A stretch of 53,542 bases of DNA from Actinomycetes bacterium (GTDB taxonomy: Bacteria > Actinomycetota > Acidimicrobiia > Acidimicrobiales > Aldehydirespiratoraceae): positions 1-53,542 of the forward strand of contig JAJRXJ010000070.1 of assembly GCA_024276355.1 (NCBI GenBank), read 5' to 3'. Position numbers and translations under genes: made by a program. The notes beneath the pieces are model-generated. The model saw only the letters and a list, made by a program, of their open reading frames with translations. It was not told the DNA's origin and ran no database searches. Of the stretch, positions 29,569 through 36,172 are shown in pieces. Numbering within the stretch: the stretch's first letter is position 1; every line of letters begins with the position of its first letter.

Positions 29569-30948
29569 TCACCCGTTTGGTTTGTCGCTGGTAACCACGA
29601 ACTCTCGGAGTGCACCAAGTGATGACGGCTCCAGACGAGCCCTTATGGCCATGCCGTCGGAGGCGGCGGTCTCGCTGAGCACCTGGCCCTCGCGGTGGAC
29701 CGCAGCCAGAATATCGCCCCTTGACCACGGCACAAGAAGGTCGGTGGTGGTGGTCATCGACCTGACCCTGTTGCCGATCAGTTCCAGCAGATCGTCGATT
29801 CCCTCACCGGTTTGGGCCGACACGGCCACTGATCCTTCGTTGTGACGGGCGAGGTTGGCCGCGCCGTCGTTGATATCAGCCTTGTTGAACACGGTGAGTT
29901 CGGGCACATCACCGGCACCGATCTCGTTGAGGACCAGATGCACCGCGTCGATGCAACCCTGGGGGTCGGGGCCCGAGCCGTCCACCACGTGGATCAGCAG
30001 GTCGGCGTCACGCACCACATCAAGGGTGGTCTTGAAGGCGTTGACGAGCTGATGCGGAAGCTTGCGCACGAAACCCACCGTGTCGGTGGCGTAGACACTC
30101 TCGCCTCCCGGCAACGACAGCCGCCTGGTGGTGGCGTCGAGTGTGGCGAACAGGCGGTCTTCGACCAGCACATCGGCGTCGGTGAGTGCGTTGAGGAGCG
30201 ACGACTTGCCGGCGTTGGTGTATCCGACGAGGGCCACCGCCCGGTTGCGGGTGCGCGAACGGGCCTTCGACTGGGTCTCGCGGTGCAGCTGCACTTTGCG
30301 GAGGTCGGCTTCGAGCTTGTGGACCCTGCGCACAAGGCGTCGGCGGTCGACCTCGAGCTGGGTTTCGCCCGGGCCGCGGGTTCCGATGCCGCCGCCCTGC
30401 TGGCTGAACTTGCGTCCGGAGCTGCGAAGGCGGGGCAGCCGGTATCGGAGCTGGGCCAGTTCGACCTGGGCCTTGCCCTCCAGGGTGCTGGCATTCTGGG
30501 CGAAGATGTCGAGGATCACCGCGGTGCGGTCGAGGGCGGTACGGCCCAGGATCTTTTCGAGATTGAACTGCTGCGCAGGGCTGAGTTCGTCGTCGAAAAC
30601 GACGGTGTCGCAGTCGACCATCTCGGCCAACTCACGCACTTCGATGGCCTTGCCGGAGCCTATGTAGGTGGCCGGATCCGGGGAGCTTCGACGCTGGACG
30701 AGGCGTTCGACGGCATCCGCGCCGGCGGTGTCGACGAGCAACGCCAGCTCGTCGAGCGATGCGTCGGTATCGGCGGGGTCCTCGCCGGAAAGGGTGACCC
30801 CCACGAGCACGATCCGCTCGCGGAACGTGCGCTCGATCAGACCGCCGGATTCGCCGCCGAACTCACCGAACGCGCCGCGGTGGGTGGCATCATCGACCGG
30901 CCCGACCGGGTCGCTCGGATCAACCGGTTCCATGTCGGTATCAGGCAT
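29569..30948 (-). CDS. hflX: GTPase HflX
   Basis: A 459-residue ribosome-associated GTPase that rescues or splits stalled ribosomes under stress. The HflX N-terminal domain (AVERLVQRRSSPDPATYIGSG split as RRSSPDPATYIGSGK) and glycine-rich GGGIGTRGPGETQLE linker are clear, followed by the G domain: GYTNAGKSSLLNAL (G1), DTVGF (G3), FNKAD (G4) and SAQTG (G5). An acidic N-terminal extension of about 35 residues is present. ATG 30948 overlaps the dapF stop by eight bases, the gene order dapF-hflX being the same as in mycobacteria. Confidence 0.94.
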   Translation of the reverse strand: MPDTDMEPVDPSDPVGPVDDATHRGAFGEFGGESGGLIERTFRERIVLVGVTLSGEDPADTDASLDELALLVDTAGADAVERLVQRRSSPDPATYIGSGKAIEVRELAEMVDCDTVVFDDELSPAQQFNLEKILGRTALDRTAVILDIFAQNASTLEGKAQVELAQLRYRLPRLRSSGRKFSQQGGGIGTRGPGETQLEVDRRRLVRRVHKLEADLRKVQLHRETQSKARSRTRNRAVALVGYTNAGKSSLLNALTDADVLVEDRLFATLDATTRRLSLPGGESVYATDTVGFVRKLPHQLVNAFKTTLDVVRDADLLIHVVDGSGPDPQGCIDAVHLVLNEIGAGDVPELTVFNKADINDGAANLARHNEGSVAVSAQTGEGIDDLLELIGNRVRSMTTTTDLLVPWSRGDILAAVHREGQVLSETAASDGMAIRARLEPSSLGALREFVVTSDKPNG

Positions 30949-31753
30949 CCGGCATCACGACATCAGCGATGTGGGTGGCAGGGCCGGTGAGCGTGGTCGG
31001 GCCGCTCACGTCGACCACGGCATCGCCGCCGGGCATTGACACCATCACCTTCGGCCCGACGGCGCCCCATCGATGGAAAATCGAGGCCGCGACGGTGGCC
31101 CCGCTGCCACACGCCCGGGTGATGCCGGCGCCCCTCTCCCAGACCCGAAGTTCAAGTTGGTTGGGGGCCGCGACCTTCACGAAATGCACGTTTGCTCCGT
31201 CTTCGAAGTGGGCCTCCACGGCCCGACCGGTGGAAGCGACGTCGAGGCCGTCGAAATCATCGACCTCGAACACGATGTGGGGATTGCCGATGTCGGCGGT
31301 CTCCCATCGTTTGACCCCGGCCAGCGCCTCACCAACGACCCCTTCGAGGTCGTCGGTGTCGGGGTCGGGACCCGGGCAGATCACGCCCATGTCGACGGTA
31401 ACCACAACGGTCGATGGCTCGGCTGCCGCGTGCACGGAACAGTGTCTGACGCCGGCGGGAGTCGAGATGTCGATCTCCAGATGTGGAACCCCACGCTCGA
31501 TGGCGATCGCCTGGGCCAGACACCGCAGCCCATTGCCACTCACCGCGGCTGGGCTTCCGTCGGAGTTGAGCAGACGCATCGTGATCGAGTCGTTGATGGT
31601 GCGGATGCCGTAGATGAGCCCGTCGGCCCCTATCCCGGTGCGTCGATCGCACCAGGAGATTGCCTTGGTGCCCGCATCGAGCGGGAGTCGATCGGTGAGA
31701 GCAATGAGAAAATCGTTCCCGAGCCCGTGATGTTTCGAGAGTCGGTCTGCCAT
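30941..31753 (-). CDS. dapF: Diaminopimelate epimerase
   Basis: A 270-residue cofactor-independent epimerase that converts LL-DAP to meso-DAP for lysine and peptidoglycan. The two catalytic cysteines are in SGNGLRCLAQ (about 78-87) and RACGSGAT (about 214-221); HGLGNDFL (8-15) is the N-terminal signature. ATG 31753 directly precedes that signature. The frame upstream is open but overlaps miaA. It has no ribosome site; GAGAAT lies eight bases upstream, which could mean a leaderless internal promoter. Confidence 0.94.
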   Translation of the reverse strand: MADRLSKHHGLGNDFLIALTDRLPLDAGTKAISWCDRRTGIGADGLIYGIRTINDSITMRLLNSDGSPAAVSGNGLRCLAQAIAIERGVPHLEIDISTPAGVRHCSVHAAAEPSTVVVTVDMGVICPGPDPDTDDLEGVVGEALAGVKRWETADIGNPHIVFEVDDFDGLDVASTGRAVEAHFEDGANVHFVKVAAPNQLELRVWERGAGITRACGSGATVAASIFHRWGAVGPKVMVSMPGGDAVVDVSGPTTLTGPATHIADVVMPDA

Positions 31754-31784: not shown

Positions 31785-32711
31785 TCACGTGTGAGTTGCG
31801 CGAACGCGATCCCAGATTCCCAGAACATCGGCAGGATCGACCGGCGCCTCGACCCAATGGAGGCGAGGATCACGCCTGAACCAACGCTCTTGGCGGCGGG
31901 CAAAACGGATTGTTCGCCGAATCGCCTGATCGAGTGCATCTTCGATTGTGCACCGTCGTTCGAGATGTTCGACCAGCTCGCGGTATCCGAGCGCTTGACG
32001 CGCAGTCGGCCCCAGGCCGGTCTCAGCGAGAGTGGCCACCTCGTCGAGGAAGCCCCGCTCGATCTGGGTGTGGTACCGGGCCACGATACGGCTGTCGACC
32101 TCGGCCCGTGGCCGTCGGATCGCCACCTGCACGAACCGGTTGGGCGGGTAGTTCTCCAAGCCGGGCCCGAAGGACGAAAACGGTCTTCCGGATCCGATGG
32201 TGACCTCGAGGGCCCGAATGATCCGACGACGATTGGTCGGTTCCATCCGGGCCGCGGCGACCGGGTCGGCGGCCGCGAGCTGCCTGTGGAGCTCGTCGGT
32301 GTCGGTGCGCCTCTCGAGTTCGGCTCTCACCTCGGGGAATTGCCCGGGAATGTCGAGATCGTCGATTACTGCGCGTAGATAAAGACCGGTGCCACCGACC
32401 AGAATCGGCACTCCCCCACGCCCGGCGATGTCGGCCAGCGCCTCGCGGGCTCGCCTCTGGAACTCACCGGCGGTGAACGCCACCGTGGGTTCGACCAGAT
32501 TGATCAGGTGGTGGGGAACGGCCTCCTGCTCGGCCGCCGTCGGCGTGGCGGTGCCGATGTCCATCCCCTTGTAGACCTGCATCGAGTCGACCGACACGAT
32601 CTCGGCGCCCTCGACCAGGTCGGCAAGGGCCAGGGCCAGACTCGACTTTCCGGATGCGGTGGGCCCGAGGATCACCAACGGCCGTTCGGCCCGCGTTCCG
32701 GGAGGAATCAC
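31785..32711 (-). CDS. miaA: tRNA dimethylallyltransferase MiaA
   Basis: A 308-residue enzyme that prenylates A37 of UNN-reading tRNAs. The P-loop GPTASGKSS (16-24), DSMQVYKGMDIGTATP (42-57), and HHLINLVEP are typical; C-terminal RRTIRFARRQERWFRRD is the tRNA-binding part. The GTG start overlaps the preceding gene's TGA as GTGA. MiaB, encoded one gene upstream, methylthiolates the product, so the pathway for ms2i6A is here nearly contiguous. Confidence 0.95.
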   Translation of the reverse strand: MIPPGTRAERPLVILGPTASGKSSLALALADLVEGAEIVSVDSMQVYKGMDIGTATPTAAEQEAVPHHLINLVEPTVAFTAGEFQRRAREALADIAGRGGVPILVGGTGLYLRAVIDDLDIPGQFPEVRAELERRTDTDELHRQLAAADPVAAARMEPTNRRRIIRALEVTIGSGRPFSSFGPGLENYPPNRFVQVAIRRPRAEVDSRIVARYHTQIERGFLDEVATLAETGLGPTARQALGYRELVEHLERRCTIEDALDQAIRRTIRFARRQERWFRRDPRLHWVEAPVDPADVLGIWDRVRATHT

Positions 32712-33538
32712 CGGGCCGCGCCGCTGAGGTGGGCAAGGAGTTGATGGAGGTCGAGCCTTCGCGGATCGACCAGATCGAGCCCATACTCATCGAGCATCAC
32801 CGGGATGAGCGGCGGACCGTAACGGTCCGCGAGCGCGGCCGCGGCGATGGCCAGATCGTGATGCCGGTCGCCGAGCCCACAGTGTTGCCATCCGGTGAAC
32901 GCCATGGTGCCGTCGGGGATGAGCCAGGTGTGGGCGAGGGCAGGTGAACCGTGGACCAACACATCGCTGTCTTCGGAGGACCGTTCGGACAGACCTTCGA
33001 TGAGGTCGTCGAGCACATCGAGCAGACGGCCGGGTTCAACCCCGGCATACGGGCCGTCGGTCGTGGTGGGAAGCTCCCCATTGCGCACACGTGATGCGGC
33101 CCGCTCGCGCCAAGTACCCACACCCGACTCGTAGGGACAGCCGGTGGTGGGAATCTCGTGGATCCTTCGCAGCGCCGAGCCAAGCAACCGGGCCATGCTC
33201 TCGGGAGCAACCGGGTGGAGCGGATCGGCGGCCGACACCGCCCCCCACGGCATTCGGATCACGGCCGACTCCAGCCGGCCATCGGATCGTCCGGACGCCA
33301 GCAGGGCAGGGGCACCGGCCCGGCCATCGAGCCATAGGAGCCGGTCGGCAGCCGACGAGACCTCGCGGGCCCCAGCCTCATGGGAATGGAGCACCATCAC
33401 GTCGCGACCCTCTCGCTCGGGACGGAGATGCGACACGCCATCGGGTTCCACCCCCGCGGGCAGGCACCGCATCAACGGGTCGGGGCCGATCACCATGGAC
33501 AACACCGGACCGAGGTCCTGATCGGTGGACGAGCTCAT
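32708..33538 (-). CDS. Aminoglycoside-phosphotransferase-fold protein lacking catalytic residues
   Basis: A 276-residue protein resembling APH(3')-type kinases. The catalytic loop appears as VLVHGSPALAHTWL, where active kinases have HGDxxxxN; so Asp is replaced by Ser and Asn by His. The metal-binding region appears as GWQHCGLGDRHHDLAIAAAAL, where the usual IDxGxxGxxDRxxDLA loses its first Asp (Gln here). The structural end DRHHDLAIA is kept. It is therefore probably a pseudokinase or binding protein. Four-base GTGA overlap with miaA and four bases after the miaB stop place it firmly between the two tRNA-modification genes. Confidence 0.75.
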   Translation of the reverse strand: MSSSTDQDLGPVLSMVIGPDPLMRCLPAGVEPDGVSHLRPEREGRDVMVLHSHEAGAREVSSAADRLLWLDGRAGAPALLASGRSDGRLESAVIRMPWGAVSAADPLHPVAPESMARLLGSALRRIHEIPTTGCPYESGVGTWRERAASRVRNGELPTTTDGPYAGVEPGRLLDVLDDLIEGLSERSSEDSDVLVHGSPALAHTWLIPDGTMAFTGWQHCGLGDRHHDLAIAAAALADRYGPPLIPVMLDEYGLDLVDPRRLDLHQLLAHLSGAAR

Positions 33539-33542
33539 CGGC

Positions 33543-34997
33543 TCAGCCTGCGCTTACCGATATCCGGGTGCGGTGGCGGGCCGCGATGGTTACATCGACC
33601 AACTCGCCCTTGAGGTGGTTGACGCTGGCCTCGAGGACCTTCACCGTTGCGTAGCTGCCCACCTTGATGGGGCGGTCGCTGGGGAAATGGACCAGCACGT
33701 TGCGCCGGGTACGACCGGTGAGAACCGTCGGGTCCTTCTTGGAGGGTCCCTCGACGGTGACTTCCTCGATGGATCCGATCCGACGCTGATTCGCGGCGAT
33801 GCTCGACCGTTCGATCACCACCCGGAGGCGCTCGTAGCGGGCCACGGCAACTGCGTGGGGCACGAAGTCGGCCTCCATGAGGGCCGCCTCGGTGCCGGGT
33901 CGGGGCGAGAATATGAAGGTGAAGGCACTGTCGAATTGGGCTTCGGCGGCAACCGCCAGCGTGGCCTCGAAGTCGTCGTCGGTTTCGCCGGGGAACCCGA
34001 CGATGATGTCGGTGGACACGGCCAGCCCGGGAATCGTGGCTCGGGCCTCGGCGAGCTTCTCGAGATAACGAGCGGCGGTGTAGCCGCGATGCATCGCGGC
34101 CAACACCCGATCGCTACCCGACTGCAGCGGGAAGTGGAGGTGTTCGCACACCTCGGGCACCTCGGCCATCGCCGCGAACGTGTCGGTGCGCATGTCCTTG
34201 GGGTGGGGGCTGGTGTAGCGGATGCGGTGGATACCGTCGACCTCACCGACCTCACGAAGCAGATCGGCGAACAGCGGGCGGGCACGACGGTCGGTGGTCC
34301 ATCGCGAGCCGCACATCCACGGATCATCGTCGGATGGCTCGGCCCGACGGGCCAGCGCGAGGTCTCGCCCGTAGCTGTTGACGTTCTGACCCAGCAGGGT
34401 GATCTCGCTCACACCATCGGCAGCCAGGCGTCGAACCTCGTCGACCAGTTCACCGAACGGTCGGCTGATCTCGGGGCCTCTCACCGCCGGAACGATGCAG
34501 AAGGCACAGTTGTTGTCGCATCCGATCTGGATGGTGACCCACGCGGCATGATCGACCTCGCGGCGAGTCGGCAGAGCCGACGGAAAGGCCTCGCCATCAG
34601 CAATGGTGGCCGCCTCGAGTATCTCGACGATCGGACCGTGTTCGGCGGCGTGGTCGAGCAGCTCAACAGCTCGTCCGACGTTGTGGGTTCCGAAAACCAC
34701 ATCGACGTAGCCGGCTTTCTCGCGGATCAGATCGCGGTCCTTTTGGGCCAGACAGCCGGCTACGGCTATCTGCATGCCCGGGTTACGATCCTTGAGCGCC
34801 TTGAGATTGCCGAGCGTTCCGTAGAGCTTGTTGTCGGCGTTCTCACGTATGCAGCAGGTGTTGAGCACCACCACGTCGGCGTCGGCAGCGTCGTCGACCC
34901 GGGCCATGCCGTCGGCCTCGAGGAGCCCGGCGATCCGCTCGGAGTCATGCTCGTTCATCTGGCACCCGAAGGTGCGAATCGCATACGACCGTGTCAC
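33543..34997 (-). CDS. miaB: tRNA-2-methylthio-N6-dimethylallyladenosine synthase MiaB
   Basis: A 484-residue radical-SAM methylthiotransferase that adds CH3S to i6A37. The N-terminal Fe-S cluster Cys are in TFGCQMNEHDS, LNTCCIRENA and VAGCLAQKD; the radical-SAM triad is CDNNCAFCIVP; a TRAM domain ends the protein (VTVEGPSKKDPTVLTGRT). GTG 34997 places RSYAIRTFGCQMN at the usual N-terminal distance. TTG 35030 would add 11 residues. The region around GTG is an 11-bp perfect hairpin, described separately. Unlike in mycobacteria no recX precedes it. Confidence 0.93.
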   Translation of the reverse strand: MTRSYAIRTFGCQMNEHDSERIAGLLEADGMARVDDAADADVVVLNTCCIRENADNKLYGTLGNLKALKDRNPGMQIAVAGCLAQKDRDLIREKAGYVDVVFGTHNVGRAVELLDHAAEHGPIVEILEAATIADGEAFPSALPTRREVDHAAWVTIQIGCDNNCAFCIVPAVRGPEISRPFGELVDEVRRLAADGVSEITLLGQNVNSYGRDLALARRAEPSDDDPWMCGSRWTTDRRARPLFADLLREVGEVDGIHRIRYTSPHPKDMRTDTFAAMAEVPEVCEHLHFPLQSGSDRVLAAMHRGYTAARYLEKLAEARATIPGLAVSTDIIVGFPGETDDDFEATLAVAAEAQFDSAFTFIFSPRPGTEAALMEADFVPHAVAVARYERLRVVIERSSIAANQRRIGSIEEVTVEGPSKKDPTVLTGRTRRNVLVHFPSDRPIKVGSYATVKVLEASVNHLKGELVDVTIAARHRTRISVSAG

Positions 34998-35024
34998 CCG
35001 GCCAAGGCTAGCGTTGGCCGGGTG
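34995..35024 (-). terminator. Strong stem-loop between recA and miaB
   Basis: CACCCGGCCAA (34995-35005) and TTGGCCGGGTG (35014-35024) are perfect complements around an 8-base loop. The hairpin begins 20 bases after the recA stop in the direction of transcription. There is no U-run, so it may be an intrinsic-like terminator without a tail, an attenuator, or an mRNA structure that hides the miaB GTG. Confidence 0.55.
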
Positions 35025-35044
35025 GGCCAAGGCCCCGAGCTACC

Positions 35045-36172
35045 TCAGTCGTCGAGGCTGATCGGCAGATCGTCGGCGTCGGAGAAATCCTCGGCGGCGA
35101 CGGCGACGGCCTCGGGCTCGGTCGATGCCTCAGGCTCAGGCATGACCGACTTCCAGACCAGGTCGGAGATCTCCACCATCATCTCGGGGTTGTCCTTGAG
35201 GAACTTCTTGGCGTTCTCACGGCCCTGACCGAGCTGCTCGCCGTCGTAGGTGTACCAGGCACCCGACTTCTTGACGATGGCCTCATCGACGGCCAGGTCG
35301 AGCACCGAACCCTCACGGGAGATGCCTTCGCCGTACATGATGTCGAACTCGGCCTGACGGAACGGCGGGGCGCACTTGTTCTTTACCACCTTGACCCTGG
35401 TGCGGTTGCCGACCACCTCGACACCATCCTTGATGGCCTCAATGCGGCGGATGTCGAGCCGGCACGACGAGTAGAACTTGAGAGCTCGCCCGCCTGGGGT
35501 GGTCTCGGGAGAACCGAACATCACGCCGATCTTCTCGCGGAGCTGATTGATGAAGATGCACACGGTTCGCGATTTGCTGAGGTTGCCGGTGAGCTTGCGC
35601 AATGCCTGCGACATGAGCCTGGCCTGCAGACCCACGTGGGTGTCGCCCATGTCGCCCTCGATCTCGGCCCGTGGGGTGAGTGCGGCCACCGAATCGATCA
35701 CGATCACGTCGAGTGCTCCGGAGCGGATCAACATGTCGACGATTTCGAGGGCCTGCTCGCCGGTGTCGGGCTGCGATATCAGCAACTCGTCGATGTCGAC
35801 CCCGATGGCCTTGGCGTAGACCGGATCCATGGCGTGTTCGGCATCGATGTAGGCGCACTTGCCGCCGTTGCGCTGGGCCTCGGCCACCACGTGGGTGGCG
35901 AGGGTGGACTTGCCGGAGGACTCGGGCCCGTAGATCTCGGTGACGCGGCCACGGGGCAAACCACCTATGCCGAGGGCCAGATCAAGGGCCAGGGCACCGG
36001 TCGGGACCGACTCGATGCTCATGGAGGCGTTCTCGCCCATGCGCATGACCGAACCCTTGCCGAACTGCTTTTCGATCTGACCGAGGGCCATCTCCAGGGC
36101 CTTGTCCTTGTCGACCGGCTTGTCTCGATCGGCGATCTTGCTGGTGGATGAGGACTTGTAACGTGGGGCCAT
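35045..36172 (-). CDS. recA: RecA recombinase
   Basis: A 375-residue strand-exchange ATPase and co-protease for LexA. Walker A is GPESSGKST (82-90), the Walker B region [15 protein letters not shown], loop L1 [13 protein letters not shown] and loop L2 [14 protein letters not shown] with GSPETTPGG. The acidic C-terminal tail is about 40 residues. ATG 36172 follows GAGAAAGA; the frame is open for 284 codons upstream but that part is leader DNA and a gene remnant. No intein is present. A SOS box in its promoter and the lexA gene in the window form the full SOS switch. Confidence 0.97.

Follow-up and report, generated by a model that had tools for sequence, protein, structure and literature searches.

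A predicted APH-fold pseudokinase encoded beside miaA in Acidimicrobiales

Locus and encoded protein

The window (the whole 53,542-nucleotide stretch analysed) contains, on its reverse strand, a run of genes in which a 276-aa protein of APH fold is encoded between miaB and miaA (Table 1). The miaB stop codon leaves four bases before the start of this gene, whose own TGA shares a four-base overlap, GTGA, with the GTG start of miaA. The original prediction, made from the sequence alone, had described this four-base gap and four-base overlap, and its coordinates, strand, frame and spacing were right. Both neighbours are firmly assigned by profile: MiaA scores 250 bits with TIGR00174 (cut-off 148.65) and MiaB 445.8 bits with TIGR01574 (cut-off 355.3). 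Relatives of dapF were matched by tblastn at related loci. On the other side, a gap of 15 bases without any gene (35030-35045) separates the miaB start from the end of an ORF reading as RecA; recX, which is common at the recA-miaB position in other actinobacteria, is not present in this gap. A promoter scan found no sites (mean of shuffles 0.9); sites resembling terminators numbered six, compared with a mean of 2.5 in shuffles. Defence-gene profiles gave no match for the window protein or for one intact relative.

Table 1. Genes and key residues of the locus, in window coordinates
Feature	Position	Strand	Basis or remark
hflX	29569..30948	-	ORF; next after dapF; name from sequence reading; relatives matched
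dapF	30941..31753	-	Next after miaA; name from sequence reading; start codon chosen within a longer ORF
miaA	31785..32711	-	Start overlaps the stop of the predicted pseudokinase gene
Predicted APH-fold pseudokinase gene, 276 aa	32708..33538	-	ORF, Pfam, PDB alignment, predicted structure
Asp228, invariant	32855..32857	-	Probable C-lobe fold Asp of other pseudokinases
Gly216 for metal-binding Asp (TGWQ vs IDxG)	32891..32893	-	HMMER to 1nd4; MAFFT
His203 for catalytic-loop Asn	32930..32932	-	HMMER to 1nd4; MAFFT
Ser198 for catalytic Asp (HGS vs HGD)	32945..32947	-	HMMER to 1nd4; MAFFT
His127, invariant	33158..33160	-	Probable C-lobe fold His of other pseudokinases
Leu50-His51 at ATP-lobe Lys site of active kinases	33386..33391	-	Two alignments
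miaB	33543..35030	-	Stop codon ends at 33543, 4 nt ahead of the pseudokinase gene start

The window protein scores 52.2 bits with Pfam APH (PF01636), well above the gathering cut-off of 23.2, so that the fold had been correctly recognised. It falls far below the cut-off for APH(3') enzymes (NF033068; 89.5 bits vs 205), although these enzymes are its nearest PDB sequence matches, and the CcrZ profile (NF046102) is absent from its 10 NCBIfam matches up to E 1. AlphaFold, run from 16 sequences, predicts a bilobal APH fold (mean pLDDT 89.3, pTM 0.88). Foldseek matches this model to 1nd4 (E 9.1e-16, TM 0.72), and comparison with 4feu (VIA) gives Z 24.6 and rmsd 3.4 over 257 aligned positions. For a 188-aa form from another locus (L032) a lone C-lobe is predicted (pLDDT 90.1), with the APH(3') enzyme 9qoy as best PDB match (E 3.4e-7, TM 0.64 by query length). 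Of the five AlphaFold models, three fell below 80 in the first job and four in the second, so fine detail is unreliable. A chance or artefactual reading frame is unlikely given the Pfam score, the dN/dS values and the random-placement test described below.

Active-site residues were assigned through the columns of 1nd4 (APH(3')-IIa) that we take to be the catalytic Asp, the catalytic-loop Asn and the metal-binding Asp. The change from HGD to HGS and the replacement of the catalytic-loop Asn by His had both been read correctly, and correspond to S198 and H203 in the 1nd4 alignment. Gln had been given at the metal-binding Asp, and here the reading needs correction: the column holds Gly216, with Gln218 two residues on at the motif Gly. 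The ATP-lobe Lys is lost as well, beyond the losses first noted; its column holds Leu50 by MAFFT and His51 by HMMER to 1nd4, one residue apart. With none of the catalytic Asp, the Asn, the metal-binding Asp or the ATP-lobe Lys retained, normal phosphotransfer would not be expected. Judged by its sequence, the window protein is a pseudokinase related to the APH(3') small-molecule kinases.

Two other positions, His127 and Asp228, do not vary across 18 aligned sequences, which share 20-51% identity with the window protein. The available text of a paper on spore kinases describes a C-lobe held by a His and an Asp, kept in almost all of its pseudokinases (PMC2860764). From motif context and predicted helices, His127 and Asp228 are probably these same C-lobe fold residues.

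Distribution and place beside miaA

A near-home search matched 17 of 41 genomes and gave 19 loci, 15 of which show the order miaB-gene-miaA-dapF. In one more (L009) the gene and miaA are present and the contig ends before miaB, and the last three (L017, L018, L019) are ordinary kinase genes at other sites, their motifs intact. Within the window's own family the locus gene was found in 15 of 25 genomes, the other 10 giving no match; in genus g2 of this family the miaB and miaA matches lie 18-50 nt apart in all five genomes, so the gene is absent there. All 15 own-family locus proteins lack the catalytic Asp, the Asn and the metal-binding Asp, and in seven (186-218 aa; L008, L010-L012, L014-L016) the N-lobe is all or mostly gone.

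That the protein is still an enzyme, working by an unusual active site, is highly improbable. Some proteins labelled pseudokinases do turn out to be active, but here the protein has lost four key residues, the residue at the catalytic position is not constant even among members of the window's genus (Ser, Met, His, His), and relatives without the N-lobe cannot form the usual ATP site.

For the order (Acidimicrobiales), 248 genomes were each searched with the gene profile, MiaA and MiaB. Among the matches listed, 150 genomes with MiaB were usable, and 111 of these had MiaA on the same contig and strand. The miaB-miaA distance in these 111 listed genomes was at most 200 nt in 68, 200-1500 nt in 32 and greater in 11. 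The gene occupies 24 of the 32 intermediate gaps among the matches listed, 22 found by the profile and two (G191, G215) by a locus HMM; of the remaining eight gaps, one gave a BNR-repeat match, one no match, and six held unrelated Pfam genes. These six (L067, L068, L070, L074, L075, L077) comprise a chorismate mutase, three GNAT, a glyoxalase and an aquaporin gene. Among the 11 genomes where the two genes lie farther apart, the fetched stretch contained the gene in eight and not in three (G041, G052, G123); in G041, from family f18, nothing matched between miaB and miaA.

The locus set comprises 53 proteins from 53 genomes, to which six ordinary APH proteins were added for comparison. Forty-six of the 53 genes are degenerate and seven have the Lys, the catalytic Asp, the Asn and the metal-binding Asp. 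Every degenerate gene lies immediately 5' of miaA: for 45 the distance is estimated at -28 to +118 nt, and for L082 the place follows from coordinates; the only locus genes away from miaA, L052 and L053, are intact. As some members of this set came to light through inspection of the miaA and miaB neighbourhoods, the fair subset is the best 30 profile matches with loci. Of those 30, 21 are degenerate, 17 of them outside the search profile and four being profile rows, and all 21 have miaA beside them. The other nine are five intact genes beside miaA, two intact genes away from it and two ordinary unlinked kinases (L064, L066). At 1e-6 the profile matches 88 of the 248 genomes, many by part of the profile, and the miaA placement covers the best 30 and some fetched loci.

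In seven f18 genomes the gene is at miaA, with miaB on another contig or at a distance of about 2-16 kb; adjacency to miaB is less strict than adjacency to miaA. Outside the order, all 11 matches with loci (from the class and the phylum, E up to 1e-18) had neither miaA nor miaB in the flanking DNA covered, which reached up to about 1.5 kb per side. Short overlaps with miaA are common among the loci, and none of the measured loci has the gene fused to miaA or miaB. One protein, L060 (G065, family f42; 1381-2388, + strand), ends, ahead of miaA, in a long C-terminal tail of low complexity in which Thr, Asp, Glu and Ser abound.

These results bear on the original prediction in three ways. Its pseudokinase claim is borne out throughout the window's own family and in 46 of the 53 locus genes of the order. 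Intact orthologs at the same place, which it had named as evidence to the contrary, occur in distant families (seven of 53 locus genes) and not in the window's family. Its view that the gene is kept in a tRNA-modification operon is supported by the adjacency to miaA of all 46 degenerate genes, but the gene is not present everywhere, as 10 of 25 own-family genomes gave no match.

Intact relatives, history and selection

The intact locus genes are L042, L043, L047 and L049 (family f44), L046 and L052 (f3) and L053 (one f20 genus). The degenerate class is not uniform: some of its 46 proteins retain one of the two Asp residues, and L059 retains both, with neither the Asn nor the N-lobe. Of six intact proteins scored, L042, L043, L049 and L052 exceed the NCBIfam APH(3') cut-off and L046 and L053 do not; three of the four genes above it lie between miaB and miaA. 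Since seven of the 53 locus genes encode intact kinases, a working kinase was present earlier in the lineage or is present elsewhere in it.

In the gene tree all 46 degenerate rows fall to the same side of one branch (support 79/86). A tree of MiaB and MiaA takes in 34 of the 53 locus rows, the other 19 having too little MiaB/MiaA sequence, so that f3 and f18 are out; there, intact f44 forms a group (91/92) with f25, f40 and f42, all degenerate, and the f20 member that is intact stands beside degenerate ones of f20. On the gene tree built without motif columns, the minimum number of changes is five for the catalytic Asp, four for the Asn, nine for the metal-binding Asp and 10 for N-lobe presence, counts that cannot separate gain from loss. 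N-lobe presence means here 85 or more residues before the C-lobe, and 13 rows are stop-to-stop frames without a chosen start. Neither a tree in which the 53 locus rows form a single clade apart from the six ordinary kinases (p-AU 0.44) nor one in which the f20 set is a clade (p-AU 0.14) was rejected, so a single origin is possible, as is separate arrival of some intact kinases. Catalysis may have been lost once or repeatedly. L030, an unlinked APH protein with intact motifs from Dokdonella (Pseudomonadota), groups with the intact L053 (87/66), which hints weakly at transfer between phyla.

For 12 pairs of degenerate genes dN/dS was 0.06-0.45, with ten pairs at 0.19-0.30; the highest value comes from a pair with very few changes (dS 0.06). 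In the same pairs MiaA gave 0.07-0.26 and MiaB 0.02-0.09, and the gene exceeded MiaA in 11 of the 12, by up to three times. Two intact pairs gave 0.37 and 0.46. In all seven close pairs, random placement of the observed base changes gave more amino-acid changes than the real sequences show in each of 300 trials; these pairs and the dN/dS pairs share genomes and are not independent. The pairs are drawn from relatives of the window's own copy, which is in none of them and whose nearest relative is about 51% identical. The degenerate gene is preserved by purifying selection as a functional protein.

This selection counts against a decaying relic, whose open frame would be kept only for translational coupling of miaB to miaA. 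The short overlaps with miaA, and the series of forms that runs from full kinase via N-lobe loss to absence in genus g2, would suit such a relic. We nevertheless consider it improbable: dN/dS is well below 1, amino-acid changes stay below random placement in every close pair, the C-lobe His and Asp are kept at 20-51% identity, and a mere spacer would not keep its sequence.

Possible role and significance

The reading we favour, tentatively and with somewhat less than even confidence, is that the protein is a non-catalytic binding partner of MiaA. The helical C-lobe is the part present in all forms and miaA the neighbour that stays constant, while the ATP-binding lobe is absent in some relatives. 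On this proposal the C-lobe would be a binding module for MiaA, alone or in complex with its tRNA or prenyl substrate, and coupled translation would produce the two proteins together. Binding would adjust the stability or activity of MiaA or its coupling to MiaB, and hence A37 prenylation. In relatives with an intact active site this module would, in addition, phosphorylate a small molecule, an activity that other lineages would have lost while the binding role stayed.

Several observations count against a partnership with MiaA. The gene is dispensable, because 10 of 25 own-family genomes have no match and the g2 gap is empty, and most genomes of the order with both miaA and miaB listed have no such gene between them. 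A distance-correlation test was split as to the partner: with MiaB fixed, the correlation with MiaA was 0.19 over 33 loci and 0.44 over 14 own-family loci, and with MiaA fixed that with MiaB was 0.44 and 0.24. The higher dN/dS than that of MiaA in 11 of 12 pairs, the lack of fusions in the measured loci and the G041 gap without the gene also count against it. As to the tRNA-binding role named as possible in the original prediction, the window protein has a net charge of -15 and no Lys, an acidity that lends plain tRNA binding no favour. Mimicry of tRNA by charge was also considered and rejected as not specific (median pI 4.94 for degenerate and 4.49 for intact proteins, 4.9 for DapF and 6.35 for MiaA).

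The strongest rival, which we judge unlikely yet worth serious weight, is a functional pseudokinase acting outside tRNA modification, for which the operon would provide an expression schedule only. An ORF reading as RecA lies just upstream of miaB. Elsewhere the space between miaB and miaA is taken by genes for GNAT, chorismate mutase, glyoxalase or aquaporin proteins, so that place alone is no proof of a shared task. CcrZ with trmB is a direct precedent: in the accessible text, the ccrZ-trmB operon is conserved across Firmicutes and deletion of trmB has no growth defect (PMC8387234). Set against this, all 46 degenerate forms stay at miaA, in f18 even after miaB moved, and CcrZ as described in part in its two reports needs kinase residues that are lost in the degenerate forms here (PMC8387234, PMC9135335).

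A metabolite sensor has a smaller probability. The old pocket would bind a prenyl, nucleoside or aminoglycoside-like molecule and signal to MiaA. In APH enzymes the substrate pocket is located in the C-lobe, and in the models the lobe retained is the one that would carry it. Against the old ligand, the columns of IIa R226 and D227, residues that we take to have a role in aminoglycoside binding, hold Ala234 and Ala235 in the window protein (HMMER alignment), which makes that ligand unlikely.

Among known systems, the APH(3') phosphotransferases (NF033068; 1nd4, 4feu, 9qos) are the best sequence and structure matches and share the fold over the whole length; the window protein differs in lacking the catalytic Asp, Asn, metal-binding Asp and ATP-lobe Lys, and in its fixed place beside miaA. 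Bud32 of KEOPS, compared by description and as an analogy only, is likewise a kinase-fold partner of a tRNA A37-modifying enzyme, but appears to belong to another kinase family, has ATPase activity, and serves to make t6A rather than i6A. CcrZ/YtmP, according to the accessible portions of its reports, too has an APH domain and shares a conserved operon with a gene for tRNA modification, differing in being an active kinase, in its partner gene trmB and in its role in DNA replication (PMC8387234, PMC9135335). The APH-related spore kinases YtaA/CotI and YutH, also compared by description, have a kinase-like fold of the same broad group and keep the C-lobe His and Asp; independent losses of catalysis were proposed for them, their context is the spore coat with no link to miaA, and whole N-lobe loss goes unmentioned in the available text (PMC2860764).

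APH-like pseudokinases as such are already known from spore coats (PMC2860764, available text). A 2025 review devoted to Ser/Thr pseudokinases of bacteria (PMC12599244) has neither 'tRNA' nor 'MiaA' in its main text, and among the matches listed, as titles and starts of abstracts mostly outside subscription papers, there was no report of a kinase-fold gene with miaA or miaB. A pseudokinase of this sort is known, but its operon setting, the disappearance of the ATP lobe from several families and the fixed link to miaA did not come up among those matches.

More broadly, MiaA in this order may have recruited an APH(3')-type kinase as a subunit dedicated to it, one that repeatedly lost its catalytic residues and even the entire ATP lobe, down to a pseudokinase consisting of the C-lobe alone. 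This would be a bacterial parallel to the kinase-fold subunit of KEOPS, a wider reading that we hold to be doubtful.

Since four of six intact locus genes exceed the NCBIfam APH(3') cut-off, false resistance calls are possible, and resistance surveys of environmental genomes may count such operon genes as APH(3') resistance genes. For the kinase fold itself, a single gene place offers intact kinases, mutated kinases, half-kinases and empty sites for comparison of how the fold is used after catalysis. For these bacteria, the gene suggests a factor of i6A37 tRNA modification that has so far gone unrecognised.
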